This document shows positions 14,871-55,777 of a stretch of 64,000 nucleotides of DNA, in pieces (within the stretch, counting starts at the first letter, position 1; every line of letters starts with the position of its first letter). The notes under the pieces are model-generated. The model was given only the letters and a program-made list of their open reading frames with translations, was not told the DNA's origin and ran no database searches. Both the position numbers and the translations under genes were made by a program. The DNA comes from Musa acuminata AAA Group (Eukaryota; Streptophyta; Magnoliopsida; Zingiberales; Musaceae), in contig NC_088355.1 of assembly GCF_036884655.1 (NCBI RefSeq), forward strand, positions 25,171,001-25,235,000. Reading direction: 5' to 3'.

Positions 14871-17544
14871 GTACCAAACCAGGTTTGAAAGGTTATCTAA
14901 TCAAACTCATGATTGGTCTCAAAAACAGCTATTGTGGACCTTCATTGAGGGCTTGAAGCCAGAGATCCGAGGAGAAGTTAAAGCACGACAACCGTATACG
15001 CTTATGGCAGCCATCTCTTTCGCACGACATCAAGAGGAGCAATTGAACCATGAAGCTCGGAGGACTAGGGTCTCTCCTCAACTTGTAATATTGAAGCCCT
15101 TAGCCCCCCCTACTGTCGACCAAGTCCCTACACTAAAGAGGTTAACAAGAGAAGAGCTTCGGGAGCGATATGCGAAGGGGTTATGTTGGCATTGTGACGA
15201 GCTGTGGAGCCGTGAGCATCGCTGTAGTAAAGGGGGACTTCTTATGATTGAACCGATAGAAGAAGAGGTCATTGAACATCCAAAAGAGAGCCTTGAACAA
15301 GAAGAAGAAGATGCAGAAGAAGAGCCACAACCGACCGAAGTTATGGTACATACACTAGCTAGCTACTCAAACCCGCAAACGATGAAAATTGGAGGCCTTC
15401 TCAAACAACAACCAATCACTGTTCTCATCGACACGGGCAGTACTACTAACTTCCTAAATAGTAAGCTTGCTGTTCGAATATCATTACCTATCAAGAATCG
15501 CTGCAGGTTTGATGTTAAGGTCACCGACGGACGGATTTTGAATTGTGATCATATGCGCTTGTAGGAGAAACTATTGCTGCAGGACCAAGAGATAATTGCC
15601 GATTTCTTCCTTCTCCCTCTTAACAATCATGAGGCCATGCTCAGAATTAAATGGTTGACAACATTAGGTGATATTTCTTGGAATTTTATGAAACTAATTA
15701 TGAAATTTTACAGTAAGGAGAAACAGGTGACATTGCACGGGAAACGTGGGGGCGACATAACAACGATTTGCACACAACAAATGGAGAATGTTTTGTATAA
15801 AGCATGCAGCGGCTTTTTGGTACAACTTGAGCAGCAAACTAAGGGAGAGCCAACATAATTTGAAGATCTAAATCTACTTCCTTTGCTTACTGAATTTTCA
15901 AATATATTTGACGAACCACGCAACCTACCTCTTACCTGTCGGCATGATCATTGTATAATGATTCTTCCAGGCAAATCTTCAGCAAATGCTCAGCCATATC
16001 AGTATCCACATCTCCAGAAGGATGAAATAGAAAGGATTATAAAAGAGATGCTCGAAACAGGAGTTATTCGGCCAAGTTGCAACCTCTACTCTTCGCCGGT
16101 GCTACTTGTACGCAAGAAGGACGGAACAAGGCGAATATGTGTTGATTACCGAGCTCTCAATGGCATAATCATCAAGGACAAATACTTTATTCCAATAGTA
16201 GATGAATTGCTAGATGAAAGGGAGCACAAATCTTTACAAAGCTGGACCTTTGATCCGGGTATCATCAAATACGAGCATGCGAAGAAGACATACGGAAAAC
16301 CACCTTTTGAACACACAACAACCATGAATTTTTGCTTTCTTCAACAAAAGGTGGAATATCTTGGGCATATCATATCAGAGGAAGGTGTGGCAGTGGACCC
16401 CTTAAAAATTGGAGTAATGCAAAACTGGCCGACCTTGAGAAACATAAAATTGCTACATGGCTTTTTGGGTTTAACAGGCTACTACCGCAAGTTCGTGAAA
16501 AACTATGGAAAGATCAGTGCACCACTTACTTCCTTACTAGAAAAAGATGTCTTCCAAAGGTTGGACAGAGCCTCCGCTGCCTTCGACAAACTTAAGGCAG
16601 CTATGACGACGACGCCGGTGCTAACACTACCAGATTTCAACCGACCCTTCATTATTGAGGCCGACACATCTGGAGTCAGAATTGGAGCCATTCTCATGCA
16701 AGATGGTCGAAAACTCGCATACACTAGCAAGGCATTATCTCCCTCCGATCAAAATATGTCAACATATGATAAAGAGATGCTCGCCATTGTGCGCGCAGCA
16801 ACGAGGTGGTGATTGTACTTGATCAGGCGATACTTTCAAATCAAGACCGACCATAAAAGCCTAAAATATCTCTTGGAGTAGAAGATATCTTCCCCCGAGC
16901 AGCAAAAATGGGTAACAAAACTTCTTGAATTTGATTTTGAAATAACTTACAAAAAGGGGAAAGAGAATGTACTTGTAGATGCGCTTTCGCAGCTACCCGA
17001 GCAAGTTGAAGTTTCGATCGTTTCACTTCCAACCAGCGACTTCCTTGAGGATATTAAGATGGAATGACAGGAAGATTCAGATACTAGTAAGATTATAAAA
17101 AAATTGGAGGAAGCACCAAGCCCCATGGCTCATTACAATTGGGACTCAAAAGAATTACACTATAAGGGATGCATTGTGCTTGTGACAAATTCTACTTGCA
17201 TCTTCAATAGCAGATTTTGGACAAAGTTATTCTATATGCAGGGTACTAAATTAAAAAGGAGTACGACATATCACTCACAAACCAACAGCCAACCGGAAGT
17301 TTTAAACAGGTGCTTGGAGACAACCCAAAGCCACCCACCAAATATGACTACCCAAAGAGAACGCCAAACCCAACCAAGCGCCATTATTGATCGACGGATC
17401 GTGACTCGACGACGACGACCCACTAATGAAGTGCTAATACAGTGGACGAACCTACCAATAGAAGATGCCACTTGGGAGAACTATGACGACTTGAAGATCA
17501 AATTCCCAGAATTCACGAATCATCAGCCTCGAGGACAAGGCTGA
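14871..17544 (+). pseudogene. Gypsy-1 gag-pol remainder (protease, partial RT, RNase H, partial IN, chromodomain)
   Basis: Order seen: end of gag with knuckle CWHCDELWSREHRC (about 15185), protease DTGST (about 15430), RT fingers, then a jump into the RT connection ([14 protein letters not shown], about 16340). RNase H (IIEADTSG), a short integrase piece and a chromodomain (IIDRRIVTRRRR..LPIEDATWENY) follow. The deletion after the HYEF position removes about 74 residues, including the FFDD box. A second deletion removes the IN zinc-binding and first two catalytic aspartate regions. A third removes the stretch between NRCLET and the chromodomain. Stops include TAG 15562-15564 and others near 15856, 16810, 16880 and 17065. 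Dead and originally non-autonomous. Confidence 0.88.
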
Positions 17545-17561
17545 TTTGAAGAGGGCGAGTC
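17545..17561 (+). other. Gypsy-1 polypurine tract
   Basis: tgatttgaagagggcgag lies immediately before the 3' LTR. The GAAGAGGGCG core is conserved in gypsy-2, -3 and -4. It would prime plus-strand synthesis. Confidence 0.7.
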
Positions 17562-17986
17562 TGTTAGGACTCTAGCTTGGAGAGTCCTAATTGAGAGGGA
17601 CATTCATGTAAACTGTTAGGACTCTAGCTAGGAGAGTCCTAATTGAGAGGGACATTCTGTTAGGACTCTAGCTATGAGAGTCCTAATTGAGAGGGGCATT
17701 CATGTAGGAGGTGTTTTCTTAGAGAAGAATTAAGAGTTGTAAGGGAATAGGAGTCTTGACTAGGAGTTGGTTAGAAGTAAGAGTCTTAAATAGGAGTCCT
17801 ATTTAGAGTTAGGGTTTAGAAGCCCTATAAATAGCCATGTATTCCTTCTCTTTTGATAAGCAATAGATGAATCTTTTCTGCAGCCTTTGAGCAGCAACTT
17901 GGAGGGAGGAACCCCTATAAAGTTCCAAGGAGGCCGATCCCCTAAAGAGATCAACCCCAAGTTTAGAATCTGCAAGGGTTCTAACA
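17562..17986 (+). repeat. Gypsy-1 3' LTR
   Basis: 425 bp. Same structure as the 5' LTR but retains the 11-bp segment cctttgagcag. Followed by the agttc target duplication. Confidence 0.93.
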
Positions 17987-18284
17987 AGTTCCAAATCCTT
18001 CTTGTTCTTTGGAAGGTGATTGTGTTCAACATTTTCATCATGTACATTGTGCACCATTTCATATGTCATCAACGAACCAATTAGTTCTTCAAGTGGTAAG
18101 TTGTTTAGGTTTTTAGCTTCTTGTATTGCAGTTACTTTTGAATCCCACTTCTTAGAAAGAGAACGCAAAATCTTGTTTACGAGTTCAAAATCCGAAAAAC
18201 ATTTTCCAAGAGCTCTTAAACTATTGACGACATCCGTGAAACGGGTGTACATGTCGTCTATAGTCTCGCTTGGTTGCATTCGTG
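17987..18284 (-). pseudogene. Copia-1 gag, second block (UBN2 domain)
   Basis: The minus strand encodes MQPSETIDDMYTRFTDVVNS...LVNKILRSLSKKWDSKVTAIQEAKNLNNLPLEELIGSLMTYE. This is the signature of the UBN2/gag-polypeptide domain of plant copia elements. It builds the capsid in functional relatives. The block is bounded by gypsy-1 on the left and LINE-B on the right. Confidence 0.88.
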
Positions 18285-19932: not shown

Positions 19933-20125
19933 TGATTCAAGGTATTTTAAAGTTTAAAAATCTGTAAGCTATAGATGAAGTGGATAAATATTGGAATAAA
20001 GCCATAAAAGGTAAGGATATTATGAGGGAGGAAAATACAAAACCGAAGGATAAGAAAAAGGATGGTACAGTCCATCCAAAGTCATCGGATGAATACCTTA
20101 CCACCTTTTCATTTCTTTATTACTG

Positions 20126-23100
20126 ATGAAGATAACATGTTGGAATGTTCGCGGACTTAATAAGCCGGAGAAATATCGGGAGCTTAACAGAATAATCAAG
20201 TCTGCCGCATGTGATATTGTTATTCTAGTAGAAACAAAAATTAAACAATCGTGCGTTCAAGCTCAAAAGAATTTAATATGGCCGGACGCAGAACTGTTTA
20301 CCAATGACTCAAATGAATCTTTTGGAAGAATATGGGTCTTATGGCATCCTAACTCTATTAATGCTTGGTTTATTTCTGCTACTGATCAATTCATTCATTT
20401 TAAGGTAGAGGATAAAAAGAATTGCTGTCAATTCAATTTTACTGGTATATATGCTTCAAATAGTATGCAAGAAAGAAATACTCTTTGGTCCGACCTGACT
20501 AATATTGCAAATGGCTGTCTCAATGTACCTTGGATTGTTCTTGGAGACTTTAATACTGTTCGGTACACAAATGAAAAAGAGGGGGGTAGACAACTTTCAG
20601 AAAGCCAGCTTCAAAGTTTTAATGATTACATTGACACTGCAGCTTTGTTTGATATGAAATATGTGGGTAATTGGCTCTCCTGGAGTAATCAAGGTGCTGC
20701 TAACAGAAAAATAATGGCTCGACTTCATAGGAGTTTGATTAATCATGAATGGTTAACAGTTTACCCAGATTCACTTTTAGAGTATGATGCTCCTTTGTTT
20801 TCTGACCATTCTTTAATGTATATACACGCAGACAAAGCGACACCAAGAGGCAAAAAATCGTTTAGATTCTTTAACATGTGGAGTACTCATCCTCAATTTC
20901 TTGATGTTATCAGATCTGCCTGGAATGTTAATGTGCATGGATCCCCCCCTTACATCTTATGTCAAAAGCTCAAAGCCTTTAAAACAGCACTAAAGGAGTG
21001 GAATACAAATACCTTTGGCAATATTACCACCACAGTTCAATTTTGTAGGAAGGAACTAATGTCATTGCAACATGAGCTGCAACTTCAGCCAAATGATGAG
21101 AATATTATCTACAAAGAGACAGAAGCCAGAAATAACTTCATGCAAGCCTTAAAACAGGAGGAAAGTTTTGCAAAGCAGAAGTCTCGACAGCATTGGCTTA
21201 CACTAGGGGATTCCAATACTAAATTTTTCTATGCTTCAATTGCTACTCAAAGGGCTGTTAACCGTATCAGCAAATGCAGAGACAAAGATGATAATCTTAT
21301 TGAGAATTTAGATGAGTTTAAAGCACACACAGAGCAATTTTTTTATTCCTTACTCAATCAAGCTGGGAAAACTAATAACATTCATGTGGAGCCGACTAGA
21401 AAACTTGATTCGAAAGCTATTTCAATCCTCAATGCCCCAATTACAGACAACGAAATTGTATGTGTTGTCTTTAAGTCACCAAAGCATAAAAGCCCAGGTC
21501 CAGATGGATTTCCAGCTGAATTTTACCAAACTGCTTGGTCTATTATTGGAAATGATGTGATCAAGGCTTGCCAACATTTTTTCTCTTCAGGTCATATTCT
21601 TAGAGAGATGAATTACACTTTTATTTCTTTAATTCCGAAGAATGCAGGGGCTGATTCACTAGAGAACTATCGACCCATATCATTATGCAACTTTGTTTAC
21701 AAGATCATCTCCAAAGTATTGGCAAATAGAATGACACAAGATCATTAGCCCAAATCAAGCTGCTTTCATCAAAGGGAGAAGTATACATCATAACATTTTG
21801 CTTACTAATGACTTGGTCAAAGATTTGCATTCAAAAGCAAGAGGGACTAAAATATGTTTTAAAGCTGATTTACGGAAAGCCTTTGATTCAGTCAATAGGA
21901 AATTTATCTATAAGATGCTCCTCGATATGAACTTCCCACAGCAATGGGTTAATTGGATTCAATCTTGCTTGGAAACTCCAAAGTTTTCGATTCTCTTTAA
22001 TGGCTCACCTATTGGTTTTTTTGGGAGCACGAATGGCATCCGACAAGGTGATCCACTCTCTCCGTATCTCTTTACTATTGCGATGGAAGGACTTAGCTGT
22101 ATGTTGGAACATGCAGTCTTAAATGGCAGCATTAAGGTACCCAATGCTGGCTCTATTTATATATCACATATAACATTTGCAGATGATTTACTTATCTTTC
22201 TCCAAAATGATCCAACTTCAGTAAAGAACCTGACTACTATTATGAATGACTTTGGTATGATTTTTGGACTTCAGTTAAATCATGCTAAAAGTAAAGTATA
22301 TATGAGTCATTACGTCGAGGATAAGGTCTTTATTGCATAATCTTTGGGGGTTAGTGAGGGAAGCCTGCCAGTTCCTTATTTGGGTCTCCCGCTCATATCC
22401 ACAAGCATTCACAAAACCCACTATCAGCCTATCCTGCAAAAAATAAATAATATAATTTCTTCTTGGAAAAATAGGCTTCTATCAAAAGCAGGACGACTCG
22501 AACTCGTCCGTTCTGTATTGCACTCCTACTCTATATATTGGTGTAATTCATTTCTTCTACCTGCTAGACTTCTCCAAGATATTGAACGGTTATTAATTAA
22601 CTTCTTCTGGAATGGCACAAATGACAAGGCAATGCATATGGTAAATTGGGATAGCATTTGTAAACCGAAAGATGAAGGGGGGCTAAACTTGAGAAATACT
22701 AGATATTGGAACCAAGAATGCCTGGTACAACAACTGTGGGATCTTTTGTAAAACAAATGTTCCTTATGGTCACAATGGGTTTCTGCTAGGTATCTTTCAA
22801 AGGAATCAATCTGGGAAATTTCAACAAGAACATACCACTCTGCAGCTTGGAAAGGAATTTTAAAGGCAAGGAATTGGCTAATCAAACATATTTCTTATGC
22901 AATCTCTTCTAGGACTAGTACTAATATGTGGTACGATCCTTGGGTGAATGGGAAGAGTATATTTCAATTATATGGCGACAGAATATGAAAAGATCTAGGG
23001 GCTCCCAAAGATTGGAAGGTTTCCGAGTTCATCACTTTGGCCGACTATCATAGCTATTCCAATCAGGAACAACTCTTTAGATATACTTATTTGGCCTCAT

Positions 23101-23685
23101 GACAATGGCAAATTTAGTGCCACATCCGCATATAATCAAATTAGGCTAAGAAATAACAAGTGAGTCCCAAGCAGTTGGACATGGGATCGAACGGGATCAC
23201 AAAGATACTCCTTATGTACATGGCAGGCCTTTCTCAATAAACTACCTACAATAGACAATATGAAAAGAAGATGTATCTATCATGTTAACCGATGCTCCCT
23301 TTGTTTGCAACAAGAAGAAACTGTTGACCACCTCTATTTTGCTTGTGATTATACAAAATGGATATGGAAGGAGATTCTCCAGCGATTTGAACTCAATAGA
23401 CTACCGCAACCAAACTTGCACCAAGAACTAGGCGACCTCATGCAATGTTTCTCAAGAAAAGAGCCTCTTACACAACTGGCAAAGGTTACTTTCAGATGCG
23501 TTATTTGGTGGATGTGGAAGGAGAGATGTAATAGAATCTTTGAAGGTCAACACACAAACAATGCTCAGCTCTTGAAAGAGATTATTAGAGACTCAAGATC
23601 CTGCATGGAGCATGATCTCAAAACCGAGCACTTCACCCGAAGAGAAAAAGATATTTTTATCAAATTTAATTTTGAAATTAGCTAA
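20126..23685 (+). pseudogene. LINE-B ORF2 (endonuclease, reverse transcriptase, zf-RVT)
   Basis: Begins MKITCWNVRGLNKPEK. The AP-like endonuclease spans about residues 1-235, with N-V-R-G, E-T-K, the GDFN box (about 20545) and SDHS (about 20808). RT starts near KSPGPDGFPAEFYQ, then PISLCN, GIRQGDPLSPYLF and FADDLLIFLQ (about 22180). The zf-RVT (CSLCLQQEETVDHLYFAC) is near 23300. Lesions: a short deletion with frameshift at about 21735, stops at 22338-22340 and 22749-22751, TGA near 22986, a deletion of about 50 bp at 23035, and a TGA near 23160. ORF2 would nick target DNA and copy the RNA in place. Confidence 0.9.
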
Positions 23686-23868
23686 AGATCTTGGGAATGA
23701 TGCCAAATAATGTACCCACAGGTAGTTATAGTCTACAGCATGTGTAGTCATAACTATCGCATTCGCACTTTATGAGTTACTTGGCTTTGTCTATGACTTG
23801 TATAGATAAAGCTATTTGTAGAAACTTTACACATAATCAATTTACTTTTACTTACCAAAAAAAAAAAA
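23686..23868 (+). other. LINE 3' UTR with conserved hairpin and poly-A
   Basis: About 180 bp present in every 3'-complete copy. It contains GCTTTGTCTAT-gacttgt-ATAGATAAAGC (about 23795-23823), an 11-bp stem with one G-U wobble and a 7-nt loop. A weaker stem (tagttatag...ctataacta type) is upstream near 23720-23757. Position and conservation suggest the ORF2 reverse transcriptase recognition structure. Confidence 0.65.
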
Positions 23869-24233: not shown

Positions 24234-26306
24234 TGTTAGGATCAAGAGCACTAAGAGAGGGGGGGGGGGGTGAATAAGTGCAGCGGAAAACTTTCTGCGA
24301 TTAAAACTAAACTGCGTTCGAACGATAAAAACGATTTCTGCGTGAAAGCTGATTCTAAGCAAGATGATGTTAAAGTCAATCTATGAAGGCAGTTTGTAGC
24401 TATGATGAAAACCAAAATATAGGCACAAACTAAAATACGACGTTCGTACGAAGAAACTGATTTACGTCTAAATGCTGATTCGTAAATCATTTGATTAGGC
24501 AAGATGCAGTTTAAGAAAGAGTATAAAGGCAGTTTGCAGTTATGGTAGAGCTCAAAACGTAAACGCAATCTGAAATATGATGATCGTACGAAAAAACAGA
24601 TTTACGTCTAAACGCTGATTCGGAAAGTGAAAGGCTTGAAACCCGATCGTATATGCGCAGAAAGCAGTAAGCTTCAGAGGAGGTTTGCAATAAAGATAAT
24701 ATGCTCAAAGTAAATGCAAACAGAGATTTAGAGTGGTTCGGTCAATCTTGACCTACTCCACTTTTGGCTTCCTCCACCGATGAGGTCACCGACGTCAACT
24801 AGAGGCCTTCCTTCAATAGGCGAAGGCCAACCACCCTTTTACAGTTTCACTCCTTTTGACAGGCTGAGGAGACAACCCTTACACAATTATCTCTCCTCTC
24901 TTTACAACTCAGAACTTATAAGAACAGAGGGAGAAGAACTTTTGGCCTTTATAACAATTTTGAGCTCTAAGAATCACAGAAAAGGATCAAGATTTCGGTG
25001 TTAAATTGCTGCCTTTCAGTGCTGAATGGGTGGGGTGTTTATAGGCCCCAACCCAGTTCAAATTTGGAGCTCAAAACTGTCAATTCCCGGAATTTCGGGA
25101 TCAGGCGGTTGCACCTCCTGACTGGAGCGGTTGCACCGCCTGGCAGAGCTCGAAGACTAAGCCTCTGGGCGGTGCTACCTCCTATCAGGGGTGGTTGCAC
25201 CTCCTGACAGAGCTCGAAGACCGAGCTCAAGCGGTTGCACCTCCTGATTGAGGCGGTTGCACCGCTTGGCAGAGCTCGAAGACTGAGCTCAGGTGGTGCT
25301 ACGTCTTGTCAGGGGAGGTTGCACCGCCCAGTCTCGCTCGGAGACTGAGCCCAAGCGGTGCCACCTCCTGGCTGGGGCGGTTGTACCGCCCAGTCTCACT
25401 CGAAGACTTAGCCTAGGCGGTGCTACCTCCTGGCTTGAGCGGTTGCACCTCCCATAGCAATCAGGGTCCGAATGGGTTGATCCATTCGGCCAAATTTGGG
25501 TTTTTTAGGGGCCCAATTGCCCCAAGATTAAGTTAATGGGATCACCTCCCATTTCCAACGTAATCATTGTGCCAACTACGATATTTTCTAAGACGTTTAC
25601 TGCAACTTGCTTCGGTGCATCAATCGCTTCTTCCGGTGAGCTTCCGGTGAACTTTCGTCGATCATCCGATGAACCCTTGGTGATACTCCTGCAGACTTCC
25701 GGCAAACTCCTGGACTTGCGACGATCCACTTGGCGAGTTCCGACGAGCTTCTTTGGCAAGCTTATGGACTTCTCGGGTTTATTCCCGCAGAACCTCCTAC
25801 GACTGTCCGAACTTCCGTCGAACTCTCGAACTCCCAACGTGATCATTGTCTTGACTCCGGCGCAACTCCTACTACATGTCTTACTTTCATCGTAGTTAAT
25901 CCTACACATGTAAACAAAACTTCAATCGAGACAATTAATCCTAAGCAATTAACCAAGTTGTCCGGCATGTCATTGGTCCCTTGACGCTTCGTCCGATTCT
26001 TCGGCGCATCGTCCTTTCCTGCAGCCTATTGCCCAATCAGCCAGTTGGCTCCGCAACTCCGATATCCTTGGTACAATACCCGCTCGTCTTGGCCCGATGC
26101 TCGAGTCCACGGCCCGAAGCCTTCTATCGATACGTCGACCGATCCACCGGCCCGACGTCCAATCTTCTAACATGTTCCTCTGGCACAACATGATTTTCCT
26201 GCTTTAATTGTCTCATCCTGATCGAGGCATCCTGCATCACTCAAAACGCAGATTAAATCATAAATATATATCAAGTAGTTTCATCATTAAAATACGAGAT
26301 TCAACA
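24234..26306 (-). repeat. Copia-1 5' LTR (about 2.07 kb)
   Basis: Plus-strand TGTTAGGATCAAGAG...GATTCAACA. Contains a poly-G run (about 24258-24270) and a GC-rich array of inverted motifs (25095-25460). It is homologous to the LTRs at 47803-49440 and 63182-64000. The right edge cuts straight into the LARD-1b RT, so Copia-1 inserted into LARD-1b. Open frames inside it on either strand have no protein resemblance. Confidence 0.85.
25095..25460. repeat. Array of GC-rich palindromic motifs in copia LTR
   Basis: About eight imperfect repeats of roughly 40-45 bp, each alternating a palindrome-like core (ggcggttgcaccgcc, ggtgctacctcc) with cagagctcgaagactgagc. The same array is at 48650-48920 and 63735-63875, and a diverged form is at 41060-41165. 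Confidence 0.75.
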
Positions 26307-26768
26307 TTCCTCATGCTCCTGATTACTCCCTGAATACACCAATATGTCATCAATGCATACAATTACACAGTCATCCAAGAGTGGTTGAAATGTCCTATTC
26401 ATTAGTTCTATAAAAGCTGCAGCGGCATTAGTCAAACCAAAAGGCATCACCAATAATTCATAATGACCATATCGAGTTCTAAAAGCTATTTTTGGAATAT
26501 CCTCCTCCTTGATCTTCAACTGATAGTAACCTGACCTTAGGTCAATCTTAGAGAATACTTGTGCACCCTGCAGTTGATCAAACAAATCATCAATTCTGGA
26601 TAGGGAATACTTGTTTTCGGTGGTCACCTGATTCAATTGTCTATAGTCAATACAAAGTCTCAATGTCCCATCCTTCTTTTTAACTAACACCGGAGCACCC
26701 CATGATGAAATATTATGCCAAATAAAATCCTTATTTAATAGTCCTAGTAGTTGTTTTTCCAATTCCAC
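26307..26768 (-). pseudogene. LARD-1b reverse transcriptase fragment
   Basis: A clean open frame on the minus strand with Ty3/gypsy RT motifs in order: [69 protein letters not shown] and CIDDILVYS. It is cut just after the catalytic DD box at 26306 by the Copia-1 LTR. The [10 protein letters not shown] variant replaces the usual NAP-.F. RT copies the element RNA in functional relatives. Confidence 0.85.
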
Positions 26769-38743: not shown

Positions 38744-38755
38744 GCTCTGATACCA
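38744..38755 (-). other. Gypsy-2 primer binding site (iMet tRNA)
   Basis: Plus-strand gctctgatacca; element strand TGGTATCAGAGC, two bases from the LTR. Confidence 0.92.
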
Positions 38756-38757
38756 GG

Positions 38758-39313: not shown

Positions 39314-39334
39314 GAGTTGAGGATAAGGTCTTTA

Positions 39335-43965: not shown

Positions 43966-45908
43966 TAATACACAAGATCATTAGCCCAAATCAAGCTGCT
44001 TTCATCAAAGGGAGAAGTATACATCATAACATTTTGCTTGCTAATGACTTGGACAAAGATTTGCATTCAAAAGCAAGAGGGACAAAAATATGTTTTAAAG
44101 CTAATTTACGGAAAGCCTTTGATTCAGTCAATAGGAAATTTATCTATAAGATGCTCCTCGATATGAACTTCCCACAGCAATGGGTTAATTGGATTCAATC
44201 TTGCCTGGAAACTCCGACAAGGTGATCCACTCTCTCCGTATCTCTTTACTATTGCGATGGAAGGACTTAGCTGTATGTTGGAACATGCAGTCTTAAATGG
44301 CAGCATTAAGGTACCCAATGCTGGCTCTATTCATATATCACATATAACATTTGCAGATGATTTACTTATCTTTCTCCAAAATGATCCAACTTCAGTAAAG
44401 AACCTGGCTACTATTATGAATGACTTTGGTATGGCTTCTGGACTTCAGTTAAATCATGCTAAAAGTAAAGTATATATGAGCCCTTACGTTGAGGATAAGG
44501 TCTTTATTGCACAATCTTTGGGGGTTAGTGAGGGAAGCCTACCAGTTCCTTATTTGGGTCTCCGGCTCATATCCACAAGCATTCACAAAACCCACTGTCA
44601 GCCTATCCTGCAAAAAATAAAGAATAGAATTTCTTCTTGGAAAAATAGGCTTCTATCAAAAGCAGGACGACTCGAACTCATCCGTTCTGTATTGCACTCC
44701 TACTCTATATATTGGTGTAATGCATTTCTTCTGCTTGCTGGACTTCTCAAAGATATTGAACGGTTATTAATGAACTTCTTCTGGAATGGCACAAATGACA
44801 AGACAATGCATATGGTAAATTGGGATAGCATTTGCAAACCGAAAGATGAAGGGGGGCTAAACTTGAGAAATACTAGAGATTGGAATCAAGCATGCCTGGT
44901 ACAACAACTATGGGATCTTTTGTAAAACAAATGTTCCTTATGGTCACAATGGGTTTCTGCTAGGTATCTTTCAAAGGAATCAATCTGGGAAATATCAACA
45001 AGAACATACCACTTTGCAGCTTGGAAAGAATTTTAAAGGCAAGGAATTGGCTAATCAAACATATTTCTTATGCAATCTCTTATGGAACTAGTACAAATAT
45101 GTGGTACGATCCTTGGGTGAATGGGAAGAGTATATTTCAATTATATGGCGACAGAATACGAAAAGATCTTGGGGCTCCCAAAGATTGGAAGGTTTCCGAG
45201 TTCATTGCTAACGGTACCTGGTGTCTCCCTAATCCTATTTCTCCCGAAATGTTATCACTTTGGCCGACTATCATAGCTATTCCAATCAGGAACAACTCTT
45301 CATATATACTTATTTGGCCTCATGACAATGGCAAATTTAGTGCCACATCCGCATGGAATCAAATTAGGCAAAGAAATAACAAGTGGGTTCCAAGCAGTTG
45401 GACATGGGATCGACCGGGATCACAAAGATACTCCTTATGTACATGGCAGACCCTTCTCAATAAACTACCTACAATAGACAATATGAAATGAAGAGGTATC
45501 GATCATTTTAACCGATGCTCCCTTTGTTTGCGACAAGAAGAAACTGTTGATCACCTCTATTTTGCTTGTGATTATACAAAACTGATATGGAAGGAGATTC
45601 TCTAGCGATTTAAACTCAATAGACTGCCGCAACCAAACTTGCACCAAGAACTAGGCGACCTTATGCAATGTTTCTCAAGAAAAGAGCCTCTTACACAACT
45701 GGCAAAGGTTACTTTCAGATGTGCTATTTGGTGGATGTGGAAGGAGAGATGTAACATAATCTTTGAAGGTCAACACACAAACAATGCTCAACTATTGAAA
45801 GAGATTATTAGAGACTCAAGATCCTGTATGGAGCATGATCTCAAAACCGAGCACTTCACCCGAAGAGAAAAAGATATTTTTATCAAATTTAATTTTGCTA
45901 TTAGCTAA
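43966..45908 (+). pseudogene. LINE-D ORF2 C-terminal half
   Basis: RT from FIKGRSIHHNILLANDL onward, FADDLLIFLQ at about 44355, then zf-RVT near 45510-45560. Lesions: a 62-bp deletion at about 44213 (removing the GIR part before QGDPLSPYLF) with frameshift, TAA at 44923-44925, TGA at 45489-45491, and a TAG near 45602. The deletion is bounded by tcc, suggesting microhomology repair. Confidence 0.85.
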
Positions 45909-46088
45909 AGATCTTGGGAATGATGCCAAATAATGTACCCACAAGTAGTTATAGTCTACAGCATGTGTAGTCATAACTATCGCATTCGCACTCTATGAGT
46001 TACTTGGCTTTGTCTATGACTTGTATAGATAAAGCTATTTGTAGAAACTTTACACATAATCAATTTACTTTTACTTACAAAAAAAAAA
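43966..46088 (+). mobile_element. LINE-D: 5'-truncated LINE in LARD-2
   Basis: Starts in the RT domain (ggtaatacacaagatcatta) and ends with poly-A. The 15-bp target duplication agttagaggactaag (43951-43965) / agtcagaggactagg (46089-46103), two mismatches, fixes the ends. Confidence 0.9.
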
Positions 46089-46184
46089 AGTCAGAGGACT
46101 AGGACAAGTAAGCGAACGTTGATACCAAGGAACCTAAAGAGAACAAAATCATTGCAAACCCTACAACGTGATGGCAGAGGCCCG

Positions 46185-47731
46185 TAAAATTCAGCTGGAA
46201 ATCCATCTGGACCTAGGCTTTTGTGCTTTAGTGAATTAAAGACAACACATACAATTTCGTCGTCTGTATTTGGGGCATTGATGAATGAAATAGCTTCCGA
46301 ATCAAGTTTTCTAGTCGGCTCCACATGAATGTTATTAGTTTTCCCAGCTTGATTGAGTAAGGAATAAAAAAATTGCTCTGTGTGTGCTTTAACCTCATCT
46401 AAATTCTCAATAAGATTATCATCTTTGTCTCTACATTTGCTGATACGGTTAACAGCCCTTCGAGTAGCAATTGAAGCATAGAAAAATTTAGTATTGGAAT
46501 CCCCTAGTGTAAGCCAATGCTGTCGAGACTTCTGCTTTGCAAAACTTTCCTCCTGTTTTAAGGCTTGCATGAAGTTATTTCTGGCTTCTGTCTCTTTCTA
46601 GATAATATTCTCATCATTTGGCTGAAGTTGCAGCTCATATTGCAATGACATTAGTTCCTTCCTGTAAAATTGAACTGTGGTGATAATATTGCCAAAGGGA
46701 TTTGTATTCCACTCCTTTAGTGCTGTTTTACAGGCTTTGAGCTTTTGACATAAGATGTAAGGGGGGGATCCATGCACATTAACATTCCAGGCAGATCTGA
46801 TAACATCAAGAAATTGAGGATGAGTACTCCACATGTTAAAGATTCTAAATGGTTTCTTGCCTCTTCGTGTCGCTTTGTCTGCGTGTATATACATTAAAGA
46901 ATGGTCAGAAAACAAAGGAGCACCATACTCTAGAAGTGAATATGTGTAAACTGTTAACCATTCATGATTAATCAAACACCTATCTAGTCGAGCCATTATT
47001 TTTCTGTTAGCAGCACCTTGATTACTCCAGGAGAGCCAATTACCCATAGATTTCATATCAAACAAAGCTGTAGTGTCAATGTAATCATTAAAACTTTGAA
47101 GCTGGCTTTCTGAAAGTTGTCTACCCCCCTCTTTTTCATTTGTGTACCGAACAGTATTAAAGTCTCCAAGAACAATCTAAGGTACATTGAGACAGCCATT
47201 TGCAATATTAGTCAGGTCAGACCAAAGAGTATTTCTTTCTTGCATACTATTTGAAGCATATATACCAGTGAAATTGAATTGACAGCAATTCTTTTTATCC
47301 TCTACCTTAAGATGAATGAATTGATCAGTAGCAGAAATAAACCAAGCATTAATAGAGTTAGGATGCCATAAGACCCATATTCTACCAAAAGATTCATTTG
47401 AGTCATTGGTAAACAGTTCTACGTCCGGCCATATTAAATTCTTTTGAGCTTGAACGCATGATTGTTTAATTTTCGTTTCTACTAGGATAACAATATCACA
47501 TGCGGCAGACTTGATTATTCTGTTGAGCTTCCGACATTTCTCCGGCTTATTAAGTCCGCGAACATTCCAACATGTTATCTTCATTAGTAATAAAGAAATG
47601 AAAAGGTGGTAAGGTATTCATCCTATGACTTTGGATGGACTGTACCATCCTTTTTCTTATCCTTCGGTTTTGTATTTTCCTCCCTCACAATATCCTTACC
47701 TTTTATGGCTTTATTCCTATATTTATCCACT
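46185..47731 (-). pseudogene. LINE-F: ORF1 tail plus endonuclease region, both ends truncated
   Basis: The minus strand contains the last part of ORF1 (downstream of 47731), then ORF2 from ATG 47584 (MKITCWNVRGLNKPEK) through GIYASNSMQERNTLW, SDHSLMYIH and up to SPGPDGFPAEFY, where it stops abruptly at 46185. There is no poly-A or 3' UTR, so the RT half was lost after insertion. Stops occur at about 47178 and 46598. Confidence 0.82.
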
Positions 47732-47802
47732 TCTCTTACACTTTTACGAAAGCTTTCAAGTTCAACTTCTCTCCGAAACAGATTGAATCGAAACCATTTT
47801 CG
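47732..47802. other. Short unassigned flank
   Basis: 71 bp between LINE-F homology and the copia-3 LTR. It resembles neither element. No feature seen. Confidence 0.4.
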
Positions 47803-49440
47803 TGTTAGGATCAAGAGCACTAAGAGGGGTGGGGGGGGTGAATTAGTGCAAAGGAAAACCTTCTACGATTAAAAAAAAATTGTGTTCGTTCGATAAAAGT
47901 GATTTCAGTAAGAAAGCCGATTCGTAAATCACTTTAACTTTTGATTAAGTGAGATGCAACAAAGATATAAATGCAGTTTGCAGTTATGGTTCAAATCAGA
48001 TAGTAGGCGTAAATTGAAATACGATATTCGTAAGAAAAAACTGATTTACGTCTAAATGCTGATTCGTAAATTACTTGATTAAGTGAGATGCAGTTAAAGC
48101 AAGGATATAAAGGCAGTTTGCAGTTATGATAGAAATCAAAATGTAAACGCAAAATGAAACATGATGATCATACGATAAAACTGATTTACGTCTAAACGCC
48201 GATTTGGAAAGTGCAAAGCTTGAAACCTAATCGTATATGCGCAGAAAGCAGTAAGCTTTTAAGGAGGTTTGCAGTAAAGATAATATGCTCAAAGTAAATG
48301 CAAACCGAGATTTAGATTGGTTTGGTCAATCTTAACCTACATCCACTTTTGGCTTCCTCCACCGATGAGGTCACCGACGTCCACTAGAGGCATTCCTTCA
48401 ATAGGCGAAGGCCAACCACCCTTTTACAGTTTCACTCCTTTTGACAAGCTTAGGAGACGTCCCTTACAGAATTTTCTCTCCTCTCTTTAAAGATCAGAAC
48501 TTGGAAGAAAAGAGGGAGAAGAACTTTTGGCTTTTACAGTAATTTTGAGCTCTAAAAATCATCAAATAAGATCAGGATTTCGGTGTGTTGGACGAACCCA
48601 GTTTGAATTTCGAGCTCAAAACTGTCAATTACTGGAATTTCAGGATCTAGCGGTTGCACCGACTGACTAAGGCGGTTGCACCGCCTAGCACAGCTCGAAG
48701 ACTGAGCCTTTGGGCGGTGCCACCTCCTGTCAGGGGTGGTTGCACCTCCTGCCAAAACTCGAAGACCGAGCTCAGGTGGTGCCACCGTCTGATTGAGACG
48801 GTTGCACCTCCTACCAGAGCTCAAAGACCGAGCTCAGGCGGTGCCACCTCCTGTCAGGGGTGGATGCACCGCCCAATCTCGCTCGGAGACTGAGCCCAGG
48901 CGGTGCCACCGCCTGGCAGAAATTAAGGTCCGAATAGGTTGATCCATTCGGCCCAATTTGAGTTTTTCAAGGGCCCAATTGCCCCAAGGTTAAGTTAATG
49001 GGATCACCTCCCATTTCCAACTAAATCATTGTGCTAACTACGATATTTCCTAAGACATTTACTACAACTTGCTTCGGTGCGTCACTCGCTTCTTCCGGCG
49101 AGCTTCCGGCGAACTTCCGTCGATCATCCGATGAACCCTCGGTAATGCTCCTGCGGACTTCAGGCAAACTCCTGGACTTGCAACGAACCACTTGGCGAGT
49201 TCCGACGAGCTTCTTTGGCAAGCTCATCGACTTCTCGGATTTGTTCCCGCAGAACCTCCGACGACTGTCCGAACTTCCGTCGAACTCTCGAACTCCCAAC
49301 GTGATCAATGTCTTGACTCCGGCGCAACTTCTGCTGCATATCTTACTTTCATCGTAGTTAATCTTGCACACTTATCTCAACATATATAGATTAGATAACA
49401 AATGACAATTGACTTCATCATCAAAATCCAAGATTCAACA
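47803..49440 (-). repeat. Copia-3 3' LTR
   Basis: 1,638 bp, plus-strand TGTTAGGATCAAGAG...AGATTCAACA. Homologous to Copia-1's LTR. Immediately right is the polypurine tract (plus-strand atctcccccttttttatgatgac), so this is the 3' LTR of a minus-strand element whose body is lost. It includes the GC-palindrome array at 48650-48920. Confidence 0.85.
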
Positions 49441-49494: not shown

Positions 49495-50929
49495 TGTTAG
49501 AACCCTTGCAGATTCTAAACTTGTGGTTGATCTCTTTAGGGGATCGGCCTCCTTGGAACTCTATAGGGGTTCCTCCCTCCAAGTTCCTGCTTAAAGGATG
49601 CAGAAAAGATTCATCTATTGCTTATGAAAAGAGAAGGTATACATGGCTATTTATAGGGCTTCTAAACCCTAACTCCTAATAGGACTCCTACTTAAGACTC
49701 TTACTTCTAACCAACTCCTAATAGGACTCCTACTTAAGACTCCTATTCCCTTACAACTCCTAATTCTTCTATAAGAAAAAACCTCCTACATGAATGCCCC
49801 TCTCAATTAGGACTCTCCTAGCTAGAGTCCTAATAGAATGTCCCTCTCAATTAGGACTCTCCTAGCTAGAGTCCTAACAGAATGTCCCTCTCAATTAGGA
49901 TTCTCCTAACTAGAGTCCTAACAGTTTTACATGAATGTCCCTCTCAATTAGGACTCTCCTAGCTAGAGTCCTAACAGAATGTCCTTCTCAATTAGGACTC
50001 TCAAAGCTAAAGTACTAACATTTTTACATAAATTTCCCTCTCAATTAGGACTCTCCTAGCTAGAGTCCTAACAAACCCGCCCTCTTCAAATCAGCCTTGT
50101 CCTCGAGGCTGACGATTCATGAATTTTGGGAATTTGATCTTCAAGTCATCATAGTTCTCCCAAGTGACATATTCTATTGGTAGGTTCGCCCACTGTATTA
50201 GCACTTCATTAGTGGGTCGTCGTCGTCGAGTCATGATCCGTCGATCAATAATGGCACTTGGCTGGGTCTAGAGTTCTCTTTGGGTAGTCATATTTGGTGG
50301 GTGGCTTTGGGCTGTCTCCAAGCACCTGTTTAAAACTTCCGGCTGCCTGTTGGTTTGTGGGTGATATCTCATACTCATTTTCAATTTAGTACCATGTATA
50401 TGGAATAACTTTGTCCAAAATCTGCTATTGAAGATGCAAGTAGAATTTGTCACAAGCACAATGCATCCCTTATAGTGTAATTATTTTGAGTCCCAATTGT
50501 AATGAGCTACGGAGCTTGGTGCTTCCTCCAAATTTTTCATATTCTTACTAGTCTCTGAATCTTCCTGCCATTCCATCTTAATATCCTCAAGGAAGTCGCT
50601 GGTCGGAAGTGAAATGGCCAAAACATTCTCTTTCCCCTTTTTGTAAGTTATTTCATAATAAAATCCAAGAAGTTTTGTTACCCAGTTTTGCTGCTCAGGG
50701 GATGATATCTTTCGCTCCAAAAAGTACTTGAGGCTTTTATGGTCGGTTTTAATTTGAAATTGTCGACCAATCAAGTAGGGTCTCCACCTCGTTGCTGCGT
50801 GCATAATGGCGAGCATCTCCTTATCATATGTTGACTTATTTTGATGGGAGGGAGATAATGCCTTGCTAGTGTATGCGAGTGGTCGACCATCTTGCATGAG
50901 AATGGCTCCAATTTTGACTCCAGATACGT
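49495..50929 (-). mobile_element. Gypsy-4: 3' part of a deleted gypsy copy
   Basis: The 3' LTR 49495-50073 (579 bp, enlarged by extra repeat units) is followed by the polypurine tract and the 3' end of gag-pol up to RNase H. It is interrupted at 50929 by the gypsy-3 LTR. It carries the same integrase and post-NRCLET deletions as gypsy-1. Confidence 0.85.
50074..50929 (-). pseudogene. Gypsy-4 pol fragment
   Basis: On the minus strand: RNase H ([62 protein letters not shown]), linker, shortened IN (MLVTNSTCIFNSRFWTKLFHIHGTKLK, HPQTNRQPEVLNRCLETAQSHPPNMTTQ) and a degraded chromodomain near the 3' end. It lacks the RNase H completion VADALSR, which intact copies have. Confidence 0.82.
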
Positions 50930-51411
50930 TGTTAGAACCCTTGCAGATTCTAAACTTGGGGTTGATCTCTTTAGGGGATCGGCCTCCTTGAAACTCTATA
51001 GGGGTTCCTCCCTCCAAGTTGCTGCTCAAAGGCTGCAGAAAAGATTCTTCTATTGCTTGAGAAAAGAGGAGGAATACATGGCTATTTATAGGGCTTCTAA
51101 ACCGTGACTCCTAATAAGACTCCTACTTAAGACTCTTACTTCTAACCAACTCATAATAGGACTCCTACTAAAGACTCCTATTCCCTGACAACTCCTAATT
51201 CTTCTCTAAGAAAAAACCTCCTACATGAATGTCCCTCTCAATTAGGACTCTCCAAACTAGAGTCATAACAGAATGTCCCTCTCATTTAGGACTCTTCTAG
51301 CTAGAGTCCTAACAGAATGTCCCTCTCAATTAGGACTCTCCTAGCTAAAGTCCTAACAGTTTTACATGAATGTCCCTCTCAATTAGGACTCTCCTAGCTA
51401 GAGTCCTAACA

Positions 51412-54400
51412 AACCCGCCCTCTTCAAATCAGCCTTGTCCTCGAGGCTGACGATTCATGAATTTTGGGAATTTGATCTTCAAGTCATCATAGTTCTCCAA
51501 AGTGGCATCTTCTGTTAGTAGGTTTGCCCATTGTATTAGCAATTCAGTAGTGGATCGTCGTCGTCGAGTCATAATCCGTCGATCAATAATGGCACTTGAC
51601 TGAGTCTGAAGTCCTCCTTGGGTAGTCATATTTGGTGGGTGGCTTTGGGCTATCTCCAAGCACCTATTTACAACTTCTGTCTGGCCATCGATTTGTGAGT
51701 GATATGCCATACTCCTTTTCAATTTAGTACTCTTATAGTATAATTCTTTTGAGTCCCAATTGTAATAAGCTACGGAGCTTGGTGCTTCCTCTAGTTTTTT
51801 TATAATCTTACTAGTCTCTGAATCTTCCTGCCATTCCATCTTAATATCCTCAAGGAAGTCGCTGGTTGGAAGTAAAACGATCGAAAATTCAGCTTGCTCA
51901 GGTAGCTACGAAAGCGCATCTGCAACAATATTCTCTTTCCACCTTTTGTAAGTTATTTCATAATCAAATCCAAGAAGTTTTGTTACCCATTTTTGCTGCT
52001 CAGAGGATGATATCTTTTGCTCCAAAAAGTACTTGAGGCTTTTATGGTCGGTTTTAATTTGAAATCGTCGACCAATCAAGTAGGGTCTCCACCGCGTTGC
52101 TGCGCAGACAATAGCGAGCATCTCCTTATCATATGTTGACTTATTTTGATTGGAGGGAGATAATGCCTTGCTAGTGTATGCGAGTGGTCGACCATCTTGC
52201 ATGAGAAAGACTCCAATTCTGACTCCAGATATGTCGGCCTCAATAATGAAGGGTCGGTTGAAATCTGGTAGTGTTAGCACCGGCGTCGTCGTCATGGCTG
52301 CCTTAAGTTTGTCGAAGGCAGCGGAGGCTCTGTCAGACCATTGGAAGACATCTTTTTTCAGTAAGGAAGTAACTGGTGCACTAATCTCTCTATAGTTTTT
52401 CACGAACTTGCAGTAGTAGCCTGTTAAACCCAGAAAGCCATGTAGCAATTTTATGTTCCTCGGGGTCAGCCAGTTTTGCATTGCTCCAATTTTGAAGGGG
52501 TCTACTGCCACACCTTGCTCTGATATGATATGCCCAAGATATTCCACCTTCTTTTGAAGAAAGCAAAAATTCATAGTGGTTGTTGTGTGTTCAAAAGGTG
52601 GTTTTCGGTATGTCTTCTTCGCATACTCGTATTTGATGATACCCGGATCGAAGGTCCAGCTTTGTGAAGAGTTGTGCTCCCTTAACAACTCATCTACAAC
52701 TGGAATAGGGTATTTATCCTTGATGGTTATGCCATTGAGAGCTCGGTAATCAACACATAATCGTCATATTCCATCCTTCTTTCGTATGAGGAGCACCGGT
52801 GAAGAGTAAGGGCTGCAACATGGCCGAATAACTCCTGTTTTGAGCATCTCTTTTACAATCCTTTCTATTTCATCCTTCTGGAGATGTGGATACTGATATG
52901 GCTGAGCATTTGCTGCAGATTTACGTGGAAGAATCGTTATACAATGATCATGCCAACGGGTAAGAGGTAGGTTGCACGGTTCATCAAATATATCTAAAAA
53001 TTCAGCAAGCAAAGGAAGTAGATTTGGATCTTCAAATTTTGTTGGCTCTCCCTTAGGAAAACCTTCTTCATTTGTTGTGTGCAAATTGTCGTTATGTCGC
53101 CCTCACGTTTCCCGTTTAGTATCACATGTTTCTCCTTACTGTAAAATTTTATAATTAGTTGCACAAAATTCCAAGAAATATTACATAATATTGTCAACCA
53201 TTTAATTATGAGCATGGCCTCATGATCATTTAGAGGGAGAAGGAAGAAATCTGTAATTATCTCTTGGTCCTGCAGCATTAGTTTCTCCTGCGGGCGCCTA
53301 CGATCATAATTCAAAATCCGTCCGTCGACGACCTTAACGTTAAACCTGCTGCAATTCTCAATAGGTAAGGCCATCTGGATAGTAACCTTACTATTTAGAA
53401 AGTTATTAGAATTGCTCATGTCGACGAGAACAGTGATCGGTTGTTGTTTGAGAAGGCCTCCAACTTTCATCGTTTGCGGGTTTGAGTAGCCGGCTAGTGC
53501 ATGTACCGTAAATTCAGTCGGTTGTGGGTCTTCTTCTGCATCTTCTTCTTCATGTTCAAGGCTCTCTTCTGGATGTTCAATAACCTCTTCTTCTATTGGT
53601 TCAATCATAAGAAGTCTCCCTTTACTACAGCGATGCTCACGGCTCCATGGCTCGTCACAATGCCAACATAACCCCTTCGCATATCGCTCTCGAAGCTCTT
53701 CTCTTGTTGACCTCTTTGGTGTAGGGACTTGGTCGATAGTAGGGTGGGCTGAGGGCTTCAATATTACTGGTTGAGGAGTGACCCTAGTCCTCCGAGTTTT
53801 ATGGTTCAAATGCTCCTCTTGATGTCGTGCGAAAGAGATGGCTGCCATAAGTGTATACGGTTGTCGCGCTTTAACTTCTCCTCGAATCTCCGGCTTCAAG
53901 CCCTCAATGAAAGTCCTCAATAACTGTTTTTGAGACCAATCACGAGTTTGATTAGATAACCTTTCAAACCTGGTTTGGTACTCCTGAATGGTGGAGGTTT
54001 GTCGGATCTTTGCTAGTTGTTCGTCAATATTCTCGTAATCGGTTGGTTTGAAGCGAATCAGCAGTCCTTCTTTGAATTGTCGCCATGAAAGGAGTCCATA
54101 AGTATGTTCAAACTAGTCAAACCACTGTATAGCAGCCCCTTCAAGATGTATAGCTGCAATTTTCACCATAGATACATCCGCGGTTTTGTTGTACCGAAAA
54201 TATCGCTCCGCATGCGAGATCCAACCAATCGGGTCTCCTTCTTCCCATCTAGGGAAGTTCACTCTCATGCATGGATAGTTGGGGTCAGTCATATAGCCTC
54301 CCCTCCCTTGGAAGTCATCTATTCGGGCTTGGTGTGATTGGGCAAAGCTCTCTCCTTGATTTGATTTCTTCGGGCTTAGTGGTCGGCCCAATCTGAGTTC

Positions 54401-54517
54401 GGTAAAGAGCATCCGAATCTTATCCTTCATTCGCACCTCCAAGGCTTCAAATTTAGCATTGATTGCCTCCTTAGATGCCATAGTATATGCCCCCAAATCT
54501 CTCTTTTGTTGTTGGGT
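51412..54517 (-). pseudogene. Gypsy-3 gag-pol pseudogene
   Basis: From the MPLT start near 54517 (minus): gag core (54470-54113), knuckle [14 protein letters not shown] (about 53660), protease where DTG has become VDMSNSNNF (about 53415, catalytic triad lost), RT fingers (53084-52764), the deletion join to [14 protein letters not shown] (about 52570), RNase H (IIEADISG), shortened integrase and chromodomain-like end (51839-51429). Several stops and frameshifts. The integrase deletion is larger than in gypsy-1, so deletions accumulated stepwise. Confidence 0.85.
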
Positions 54518-54539
54518 TAAAGGCATGTATAGATTGAGA

Positions 54540-55777
54540 GAAGTGATGGTTGAAAGGGTTGGTGGATTGGTGGATGTAGGCTGCGGTTTAGGCTTGTTTT
54601 GTGGCTGTTTTGTGGTTGTTTTGGGTACAGTTTGAGGGTGTGGTTTGGCAGAGTTATAGGGTTGTGGATGAAAGTTTTGGATCTGTGGTAGATGGTAGCA
54701 AAGGTTTGACAGAAATCCGTAGAAGTTGCAGCAAGTATGTGCTGTCTTATAAGAGTAGAATTGTCGTCGAAGAAACAACGGTTTCTCGACGTAATTTCCA
54801 CCAGAAACTTAAGAGAATTGAGGAGGGAATTGATAGTAAAATCACAGTTTATATGACAGCAAGGATATCTAATTTAATCAAGAAAATTTCGGCAGTATAA
54901 CAGCAAGAAAATTGGTGCAAGTTGCAATTGCAGAATTGTCGTCGAAAAATTTCAGCGGGTTACGATGAAAATTTGCAGCAACATAAAATCGTTTTTAGAG
55001 ATGAATTTCTTAATATATCAATCGTAGATAGAAGCCAAGATGATCTATGAAGTGTATAAGAAATTTCATTAAAAAAAGATTGCAAATGGATGGGTTAAGG
55101 CAATGATATGCAGCTGAAATTTTCTACAGCATAGATTTTCAAGTGCAGCAGATTGGACATAAAAGATCAGTAGTTTATATTGAGAATTTTTCGATGAAAC
55201 CAAAGAGAAATCTTCTGTTAGGAAGTGTCAAAGATGTCATAAAAATTTCGTAGAAATTTGGATAGAAAAAGCACAGTAGCAAGATCAAACAGATGGTGCT
55301 ATGCGGCTTGAATTCTGCAATTCAAGTGCAGCAGATTGGACATAAAATATCAGTAGTTTATATTGAGAATTTTTTGATGAAACCAAAGGGAAATCCACTG
55401 TTAGGAAGTGTCAAAGATGTCATAAAAATTTCGTAGAAATTTGGATAGAAAAAGCACAGTAGTAAGATCAAACAGATGGTGCTATGCGGCTGGAATTCTG
55501 CAATGTATCTTTCGTCGTAGAGATGAAAACTTTGTGACGAAAAGTTTATGCAGCAATATAGGAACAATTTTTTTTTTTTTTTTGGATTTTCGAATAAGGA
55601 TAACTAAATTGCAGCAGCAGTAAGGTAGGAAACCAGAATCTATTGCAATTCACGGGGAGATTAAAGGATGATCCGTGGTGGTGGAGATGATGGTGGAATT
55701 CGGTGACGATCTTTTAAGCAATTGTGGGAATTGCTTTGGATGGTTGTAGAAGGTTGATGGATGGCTATGGAAGGGAC
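54540..55777 (-). other. Gypsy-3 5' leader
   Basis: Non-coding leader with the 183-bp tandem duplication (about 55120-55500) and poly-T run (55569-55583), matching gypsy-1's leader on the opposite strand. Open frames in it are incidental. Confidence 0.7.

Follow-up and report, generated by a model that had tools for sequence, protein, structure and literature searches.

How could a Ty3/gypsy retrotransposon keep moving after losing catalytic parts of both its reverse transcriptase (RT) and its integrase (IN)? The question is raised by a 64-kb window of Musa acuminata AAA Group DNA (NC_088355.1, positions 25,171,001 to 25,235,000), in which we compared four copies, gypsy-1 to gypsy-4, all lying within the window. 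Gypsy-1, gypsy-3 and gypsy-4 are plant-type Ty3/gypsy copies with common deletion junctions; gypsy-2 is intact and young. We consider it probable (roughly 0.85) that the three copies belong to a deleted subfamily, which originated by internal deletions, was mobilised in trans and exchanged segments through template switching with a gypsy-2-like lineage.

Deletion Junctions Shared by Separate Copies

An initial annotation of this DNA had proposed three junctions (J1 to J3), each common to at least two copies. All three were seen in alignments and could be located in the window; the deletion sizes below are in gypsy-2 coordinates and were computed from motif positions.

16327-16344, plus strand: J1 in gypsy-1, break at 16333/16334; 209-bp deletion in RT
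52554-52571, minus strand: J1 in gypsy-3, break at about 52565
17192-17211, plus strand: J2 in gypsy-1, break at 17199/17200; 426-bp deletion in IN
50424-50443, minus strand: J2 in gypsy-4, break at about 50436
17312-17332, plus strand: J3 in gypsy-1, break at about 17319; 516-bp deletion in the C-terminal part of IN
51641-51661, minus strand: J3 in gypsy-3, break at about 51654
50303-50323, minus strand: J3 in gypsy-4, break at about 50316
51720-51738, minus strand: larger IN deletion of gypsy-3, break at about 51732

The last of these, also noticed at the outset, was confirmed by alignment and includes the J2 site. The J1 deletion takes the FFDD box of RT (gypsy-1 and gypsy-3). According to the Pfam positions, J2 takes the IN zinc finger and most of the IN core (gypsy-1 and gypsy-4), and J3 the remainder of IN to near the chromodomain (all three copies). 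In pieces of the deleted copies, Pfam matched gag, protease (PR), RNase H and, in gypsy-1, the chromodomain; neither RVT_1 nor rve was matched in the pieces scanned, and the chromodomain piece of gypsy-3 gave no Pfam match. The amplified form is therefore non-autonomous by its content, the RT FFDD box and the IN zinc finger and core being absent, and by the fact that this defect is common to separate copies (three in the window, plus 44 of 246 database proteins).

As read from the alignments, the joins have little or no microhomology. Just before J1 there is a small frameshift, with 4 bp missing in gypsy-1 and 10 bp in gypsy-3, and the frame is restored by J1. Apart from this short stretch, the phase of gypsy-1 relative to gypsy-2 is constant from the C-terminal part of gag to the chromodomain; a single phase also runs as far as the chromodomain in gypsy-3, beginning after J1, and in gypsy-4, beginning at the RNase H-IN connection. 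All deleted copies contain stop codons when read in the frame of gypsy-2.

Gypsy-1 Is a Complete Insertion

Gypsy-1 has both long terminal repeats (LTRs), a primer binding site (PBS), a polypurine tract (PPT) and a perfect 5-bp target site duplication (TSD). Its start, first placed at 14871, is in fact at 2569; 14871 is the point at which the element resumes after a nested LTR element.

2569-17986, plus strand: gypsy-1, whole element
2564-2568 and 17987-17991, plus strand: TSD AGTTC, the two copies identical
2569-2982, plus strand: 5' LTR, 414 bp, TGTTAG...CTAACA
2985-2996, plus strand: PBS TGGTATCAGAGC, identical in gypsy-2
3290-3656, plus strand: tandem leader duplication, 184-bp units
4222-4802, plus strand: N-terminal part of gag, matched by Pfam Retrotrans_gag
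4803-14870, minus strand: nested LTR element in gag, with 4.2-kb LTRs and TSD GTACC
14871-17561, plus strand: C-terminal part of gag, PR, remnants of RT and RNase H, IN remnant, chromodomain and PPT
17562-17986, plus strand: 3' LTR, directly followed by the second TSD copy

The two LTRs differ at 5 of 414 sites, with 11 gap columns, and the PBS TGGTATCAGAGC is presumably of the initiator-Met type. The N-terminal part of gag differs from that of gypsy-2 at 59 of 581 sites. The leader duplication attributed to both gypsy-1 and gypsy-3 is present in both, the 184-bp copies being 92.4% alike in gypsy-1 and 96.2% in gypsy-3; the unit was not found in gypsy-2, where the sole reported match was one of 13 bp, elsewhere in the element.

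The nested element at 4803-14870 has 4.2-kb LTRs that are 99.36% alike and contain tandem repeats, a 1.6-kb internal part and, read on the minus strand, a Met-type PBS. We take it to resemble a large retrotransposon derivative (LARD). A relative, 82-85% alike, lies at 26496-29250.

Gypsy-3 and Gypsy-4

The other two deleted copies adjoin each other on the minus strand.

50930-55775, minus strand: gypsy-3, whole; 5' LTR missing where the copy meets a long interspersed nuclear element (LINE), at ~55775
50930-51411, minus strand: 3' LTR of gypsy-3
51412-55775, minus strand: internal region of gypsy-3, with J1, the larger IN deletion and J3
49495-50929, minus strand: gypsy-4, whole; the 3' part of an element
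49495-50073, minus strand: 3' LTR of gypsy-4, with extra 44-bp-type units at its start
50074-50929, minus strand: internal remnant of gypsy-4, from RNase H to PPT, with J2 and J3

Because the exact LTR end of gypsy-3 (50930) stands directly next to gypsy-4 coding sequence (50929), gypsy-3 was most likely inserted into gypsy-4, although the pair may instead be a complex element produced by template switching, of the kind treated in the excerpted part of PMC1950507. The other half of gypsy-4 was not found in the window. The view that the copies are separate insertions is thus borne out by the TSD of gypsy-1 and by the LTR end of gypsy-3 within gypsy-4 coding sequence; proof by a TSD extends to one of the three deleted copies.

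LTR length ranges from 414 to 579 bp, varying with the number of 44-bp-type tandem units at the LTR start (49495-50073 and 50930-51411).

The Junctions Among Database Proteins

A motif search was run over 246 database proteins, with motifs loosened by eye and with open frames alone detectable; the proteins listed are at most the best 120 matches per search. J1 was found in 10 proteins, J2 in 26, J3 in 27 and the larger IN deletion of the gypsy-3 type in 4, for a total of 44 proteins with any junction. When the J1-bearing frame of gypsy-1 was used as the query there were 5786 matches, and J1 was present in 10 of the best 120. The J2/J3-bearing frame gave 37 matches, 34 of which had J2, the larger deletion or J3, and those with both J2 and J3 were 73-94% identical to gypsy-1. 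One protein, P0012 (56 member sequences), has an uninterrupted frame of 409 aa that spans all three junctions.

The frameshifted stretch before J1 recurs in 9 of the 10 J1 proteins, and the tenth begins inside it. Two sub-lineages can be told apart there, LLDEREH (as in gypsy-1) and LLREH (as in gypsy-3), both represented among the database proteins. The junction of the larger IN deletion, YK[GS]TKLK, occurs on more than one background and is not private to gypsy-3. Since the junctions are found in both sub-lineages, and the larger IN deletion on different backgrounds, the deletions predate the branching of the deleted family. These proteins, together with the complete, TSD-flanked gypsy-1 and flanks that speak against segmental duplication, uphold the proposals that the breakpoints are older than the insertions and that a lineage devoid of RT core and integrase kept moving, hence in trans.

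As to their sources, 42 of the 44 junction proteins come from ENA and one from Logan; the longest contig per protein measures 506 to 2121 bases. Named database matches, among them Platanthera, Citrus and Cucumis, point to a flowering plant as the host. Pattern scans returned 8 and 8 stretches in viral contigs and 18 in genome contigs, none of them confirmed as a relative.

The remaining junction protein, P0005, carries J1 in a contig labelled Salmonella enterica; this is apparently plant DNA contaminating a bacterial assembly.

Gypsy-2 and Its Mosaic Relationship to the Deleted Copies

The intact copy sits inside a LINE and reads on the minus strand.

33367-39187, minus strand: gypsy-2, with TSD GAGTG on both sides
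33367-33796 and 38758-39187, minus strand: LTRs, 2 mismatches in 430
33826-38235, minus strand: open reading frame (ORF) of 1469 aa

Pfam matches in this single ORF are, in order, gag, PR, RVT_1, RNase H, IN zinc finger, IN core, an SH3-like domain and the chromodomain, the arrangement of a Ty3/gypsy chromovirus. Both gypsy-1 and gypsy-2 show the hallmarks of the group, namely a PBS beside the 5' LTR, a PPT before the 3' LTR and a 5-bp TSD. The termini, PBS and PPT had been described as matching between the deleted copies and gypsy-2. This holds for the PBS (gypsy-1 compared with gypsy-2), for the LTR ends except that gypsy-2 ends in TACCA and the others in TAACA, and for the PPT except for one base by which gypsy-1 is off from gypsy-2, gypsy-3 and gypsy-4.

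Divergence from gypsy-2 is block-wise. For gypsy-1 and gypsy-3, synonymous divergence (dS) from gypsy-2 is 0.20-0.22 in the N-terminal part of gag and 0.31 in its C-terminal part, then 1.9-2.3 in PR-RT; it falls to 0.41-0.53 in RNase H (0.18 for gypsy-4) and is 1.7-2.3 in the RNase H-IN connection. In the short RT piece after J1 it is 2.4 for gypsy-1 and was not computable for gypsy-3. Chromodomain DNA is 67-72% identical to that of gypsy-2. The LTRs are about 6% different from those of gypsy-2, a distance comparable to that between the deleted copies (24/417 between gypsy-1 and gypsy-2, 27/425 between gypsy-1 and gypsy-3, 31/429 between gypsy-2 and gypsy-3), so that 24 differences in 417 LTR sites stand against a PR-RT dS of 1.9, as in LTR swapping.

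The block borders are abrupt. At the gag/PR border (gypsy-2 positions 2167-2206, window about 37055-37094), not one of 2000 permutations reached the changepoint, in gypsy-1 or in gypsy-3. The edges of the RNase H block lie at gypsy-2 positions of about 3451-3465 and 3914-3957, with 1 and 13 of 2000 permutations for gypsy-1, 0 and 0 of 2000 for gypsy-3, and 0 of 2000 for gypsy-4. Further changepoints inside PR-RT are weak (44 and 128 of 2000), those tested on the N-terminal part of gag alone gave 126/1000 (gypsy-1) and 50/1000 (gypsy-3), and none were found to the right of RNase H (1526 and 1127 of 2000). Between gypsy-1 and gypsy-3 themselves the test was not significant (138 and 229 of 2000).

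Within RNase H, gypsy-3 and gypsy-4 are nearer to gypsy-2 (91-93%) than to gypsy-1 (82-83%) in one 150-column block. At gypsy-2 positions 3731-3914, 20 of 184 sites set gypsy-1 alone apart and 9 set gypsy-2 alone apart, so that gypsy-3 and gypsy-4 are nearer to gypsy-2 in this stretch.

Such block-wise divergence implies an exchange of segments, and the deleted and intact lineages are accordingly mosaics with LTR, leader, gag and RNase H in common. The exchange is best explained by co-packaging and template switching. Because dS is about 2 in PR-RT and the pre-IN connection but low in gag and RNase H, gypsy-2 is a recombination partner, and not the progenitor, of the deleted copies. Its initial designation as the probable autonomous partner can thus be retained in part: the ORF is intact, the PBS is the same, the PPT nearly so, and its LTR is as close to those of the deleted copies as these are to one another, but the PR-RT region and the pre-IN connection diverged anciently (dS about 1.7-2.4). 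As a helper, gypsy-2 is a possible candidate, judged by its shared cis sequences only. The LTR tree that had been suggested for deleted and intact copies does not set gypsy-2 apart, and gives a weak grouping of gypsy-2 with gypsy-3 (61% of 200 bootstraps); in this tree the gypsy-4 LTR was cut at 49976, its end being at 50073.

Timing and Coding Constraint

Between gypsy-1 and gypsy-3 the difference is 5.0% over the leader and the N-terminal part of gag and about 9.5% over the coding remnants that follow, with single 150-column blocks ranging from 3% to 18%. Compared with the 5 mismatches in 414 sites between the gypsy-1 LTRs, this divergence of 5.0-9.5% implies at least one move long after the loss of the RT core and IN. 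At a rate of 1.3e-8 per site and year, the LTRs date gypsy-1 to about 0.5 and gypsy-2 to about 0.2 million years.

Ratios of nonsynonymous to synonymous changes (N/S) between gypsy-1 and gypsy-3 were evaluated with a null model in which base and CpG context is preserved, with wrong-frame controls at 0.85-1.17. The values were 1.01-1.03 for gag, 0.86-0.94 for PR-RT, and 0.96-0.98 for gag, PR-RT and connection together, that is, without RNase H. RNase H gave 0.49-0.65 (P 0.01 and 0.11 in the two directions). Small comparisons with gypsy-4 (26 N to 6 S, 11 N to 1 S) indicated no constraint. The coding remnants of the deleted lineage therefore evolve about neutrally outside RNase H, meaning that the lineage is not visibly maintained for its proteins; the low RNase H ratio is consistent with import from a functional lineage.

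Naive Fisher tests (p = 0.0004 for pol, 0.086 for gag) also prompted the idea that the deleted ORF is under selection; it was rejected, the signal being gone outside RNase H with the context-aware null.

Proposed Mechanism and Alternatives

On the reading that we favor, an autonomous chromovirus would have given rise to a non-autonomous subfamily by at least three internal deletions (of the RT core, of the IN zinc finger and core, and of the rest of IN), probably made during reverse transcription. The deleted RNA would have retained its LTR ends, PBS, leader and PPT. Because the catalytic parts are missing while the hallmarks of retrotransposition are present, packaging, copying and integration would have relied on proteins provided in trans by intact relatives, with gypsy-2-like elements perhaps as one helper. 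Co-packaging with gypsy-2-like RNA could then have led to template switching, through which LTR, leader, gag and RNase H would have been swapped; each lineage kept its own PR-RT, as well as its own sequence from the RNase H-IN connection as far as the chromodomain. We further suggest, tentatively and with the odds somewhat against it, that the neutrally decaying deleted lineage persisted and branched for so long through repeated refreshing, by template switching, of LTR, leader, gag and even RNase H. Deleted and intact elements would then draw on one pool of cis sequences while their enzyme cores stay apart, and copies of the parasite may be more numerous than those of its host element.

Several observations weigh against this reading. 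All three deletions preserve the frame, which would hint at a translated product. The TSD is verified in gypsy-1 alone, gypsy-3 and gypsy-4 being without 5' ends. The junction proteins derive almost entirely from ENA contigs (42 of 44), whose host plant may differ, and the protein searches detect only open-frame copies among the best 120 matches listed. In protein trees, of RT and RNase H alike, gypsy-2 is sister to the deleted family and no mosaic is seen; since the proteins show no tree conflict, the evidence for the mosaic comes from nucleotide and synonymous divergence. Finally, no close intact copy was found among the 120 matches listed for the RT-RNase H piece of gypsy-2, the best of which was 76% identical, so the true progenitor is not among them.

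Could a single insertion have been multiplied as DNA, through segmental or tandem duplication and possibly gene conversion, with no movement after the deletions? Gypsy-3 and gypsy-4 do lie head to tail, like a tandem repeat, and all three deleted copies are found inside about 53 kb. We nevertheless regard this as very improbable. Gypsy-1 carries a TSD of its own, gypsy-3 meets gypsy-4 coding sequence precisely at its LTR end, and the junctions recur in the 44 database proteins. Moreover, when 1.5 kb on each side of the deleted copies was compared, as a check for segmental duplication, the single match was a LINE (left of gypsy-1, right of gypsy-3); it is on the same strand in both places though the two elements are oppositely oriented, and is therefore not what a duplication would be expected to yield. 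Independent deletions at preferred breakpoints, for which the short microhomologies read at the joins might be invoked, are harder still to credit and seem to us extremely improbable: three junctions fall at the identical base in different copies, and the frameshift before J1 is common to gypsy-1, gypsy-3 and nine of the ten J1 proteins.

The frame-preserving deletions raise the further prospect that the family is not a pure passenger but continues to produce a truncated Gag-Pol of some use, such as a Gag or chromodomain factor. Together the deletions keep the frame, P0012 is open across all three junctions, and the naive N/S test on pol was significant (p = 0.0004). This signal was removed by the context null (0.96-0.98 without RNase H, within the wrong-frame range of 0.85-1.17), the low RNase H ratio can equally be explained by import from the intact lineage, retention of frame by chance is estimated at 1 in 27, and protein searches favor open copies; a functional product is thus unlikely, if the least unlikely of these alternatives. 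The resemblance to gypsy-2 in LTR and gag might, on the other hand, reflect selection on cis sequences in place of exchange, as LTR ends, PBS and PPT must match in a system working in trans. Such selection is decidedly unlikely as the explanation, given that synonymous sites of gag and RNase H are also close (dS 0.2-0.5), that PR-RT is near saturation and that the changepoints are abrupt.

Other Repeats in the Window

The window as a whole is repeat-rich and plant-like by its database matches. LINE-like pieces, mostly 93-97% alike, several of them broken or rearranged and one of them host to the gypsy-2 insertion, lie at the following positions.

743-2460
19973-23868
29385-33071
44213-47743
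55771-56614
58426-63182

A frame at 39130-39756 begins with a Copia-type RT (RVT_2) and continues into LINE and gypsy-2 LTR sequence. A dispersed repeat is present in two copies, 24234-25908 and 47803-49370, that are 84-86% alike.

Comparison With Known Systems

Judging from its title, a 2010 study by Du et al. reportedly deals with LTR swapping in soybean that connects a non-autonomous family with an autonomous partner. In the present family the exchange also took in gag and RNase H, and the deleted copies retain most of gag and parts of pol. Dasheng of rice is non-autonomous and moves with the Ty3/gypsy partner RIRE2, which has similar LTRs; Dasheng is not known to have coding capacity, whereas the deleted copies keep gag, PR, RNase H and chromodomain. 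Nor do these copies correspond to terminal-repeat retrotransposons with a GAG domain (TR-GAG), in which only gag is retained and is functional, given that RNase H and chromodomain remain and gag N/S is neutral (1.01-1.03). LARDs and terminal-repeat retrotransposons in miniature (TRIM) have no coding capacity, unlike the deleted copies with their recognisable gag and pol domains.

A precedent for the proposed route is provided by Onsen, a Copia element of Arabidopsis. High-frequency recombination during reverse transcription of two co-packaged transcripts is described for it in the excerpted text of PMC5668417, but there the exchange is among members of one family and in new insertions. Closer in their enzyme deficiency and recombination, though belonging to another element family and to grasses, are the centromeric CR2-Sb-B and noaCR5-Sb: according to the excerpt of PMC4079200, most CR2-Sb-B elements are non-autonomous, with RT and integrase absent or truncated, and recombination between centromeric retrotransposon variants has produced prolific mosaics. 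Defective and intact pararetroviruses share regulatory sequence through region-specific recombination and concerted evolution, as stated in the portion of PMC5491270 consulted, where non-autonomous LTR retrotransposons and their partners are also said to have similar LTRs as a hallmark; these pararetroviruses are viruses with circular genomes, not LTR retrotransposons. TARE1 of tomato (PMC3701649) was considered for comparison as well but was not adopted.

Pairs of non-autonomous and autonomous LTR elements with exchange are thus known, and what this family contributes is a series of deletion junctions together with a mosaic that extends into gag and RNase H. Serial junctions of this kind can serve as inherited tags by which a parasitic retrotransposon lineage is traced, and block-wise synonymous divergence reveals its exchange with intact elements. 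This suggests how the LTRs and leaders of defective elements may continue to match even though no constraint is detectable on the genes of these elements, and it carries a warning, as the position of such elements would come out wrong in a tree built from LTRs alone or from RT alone.

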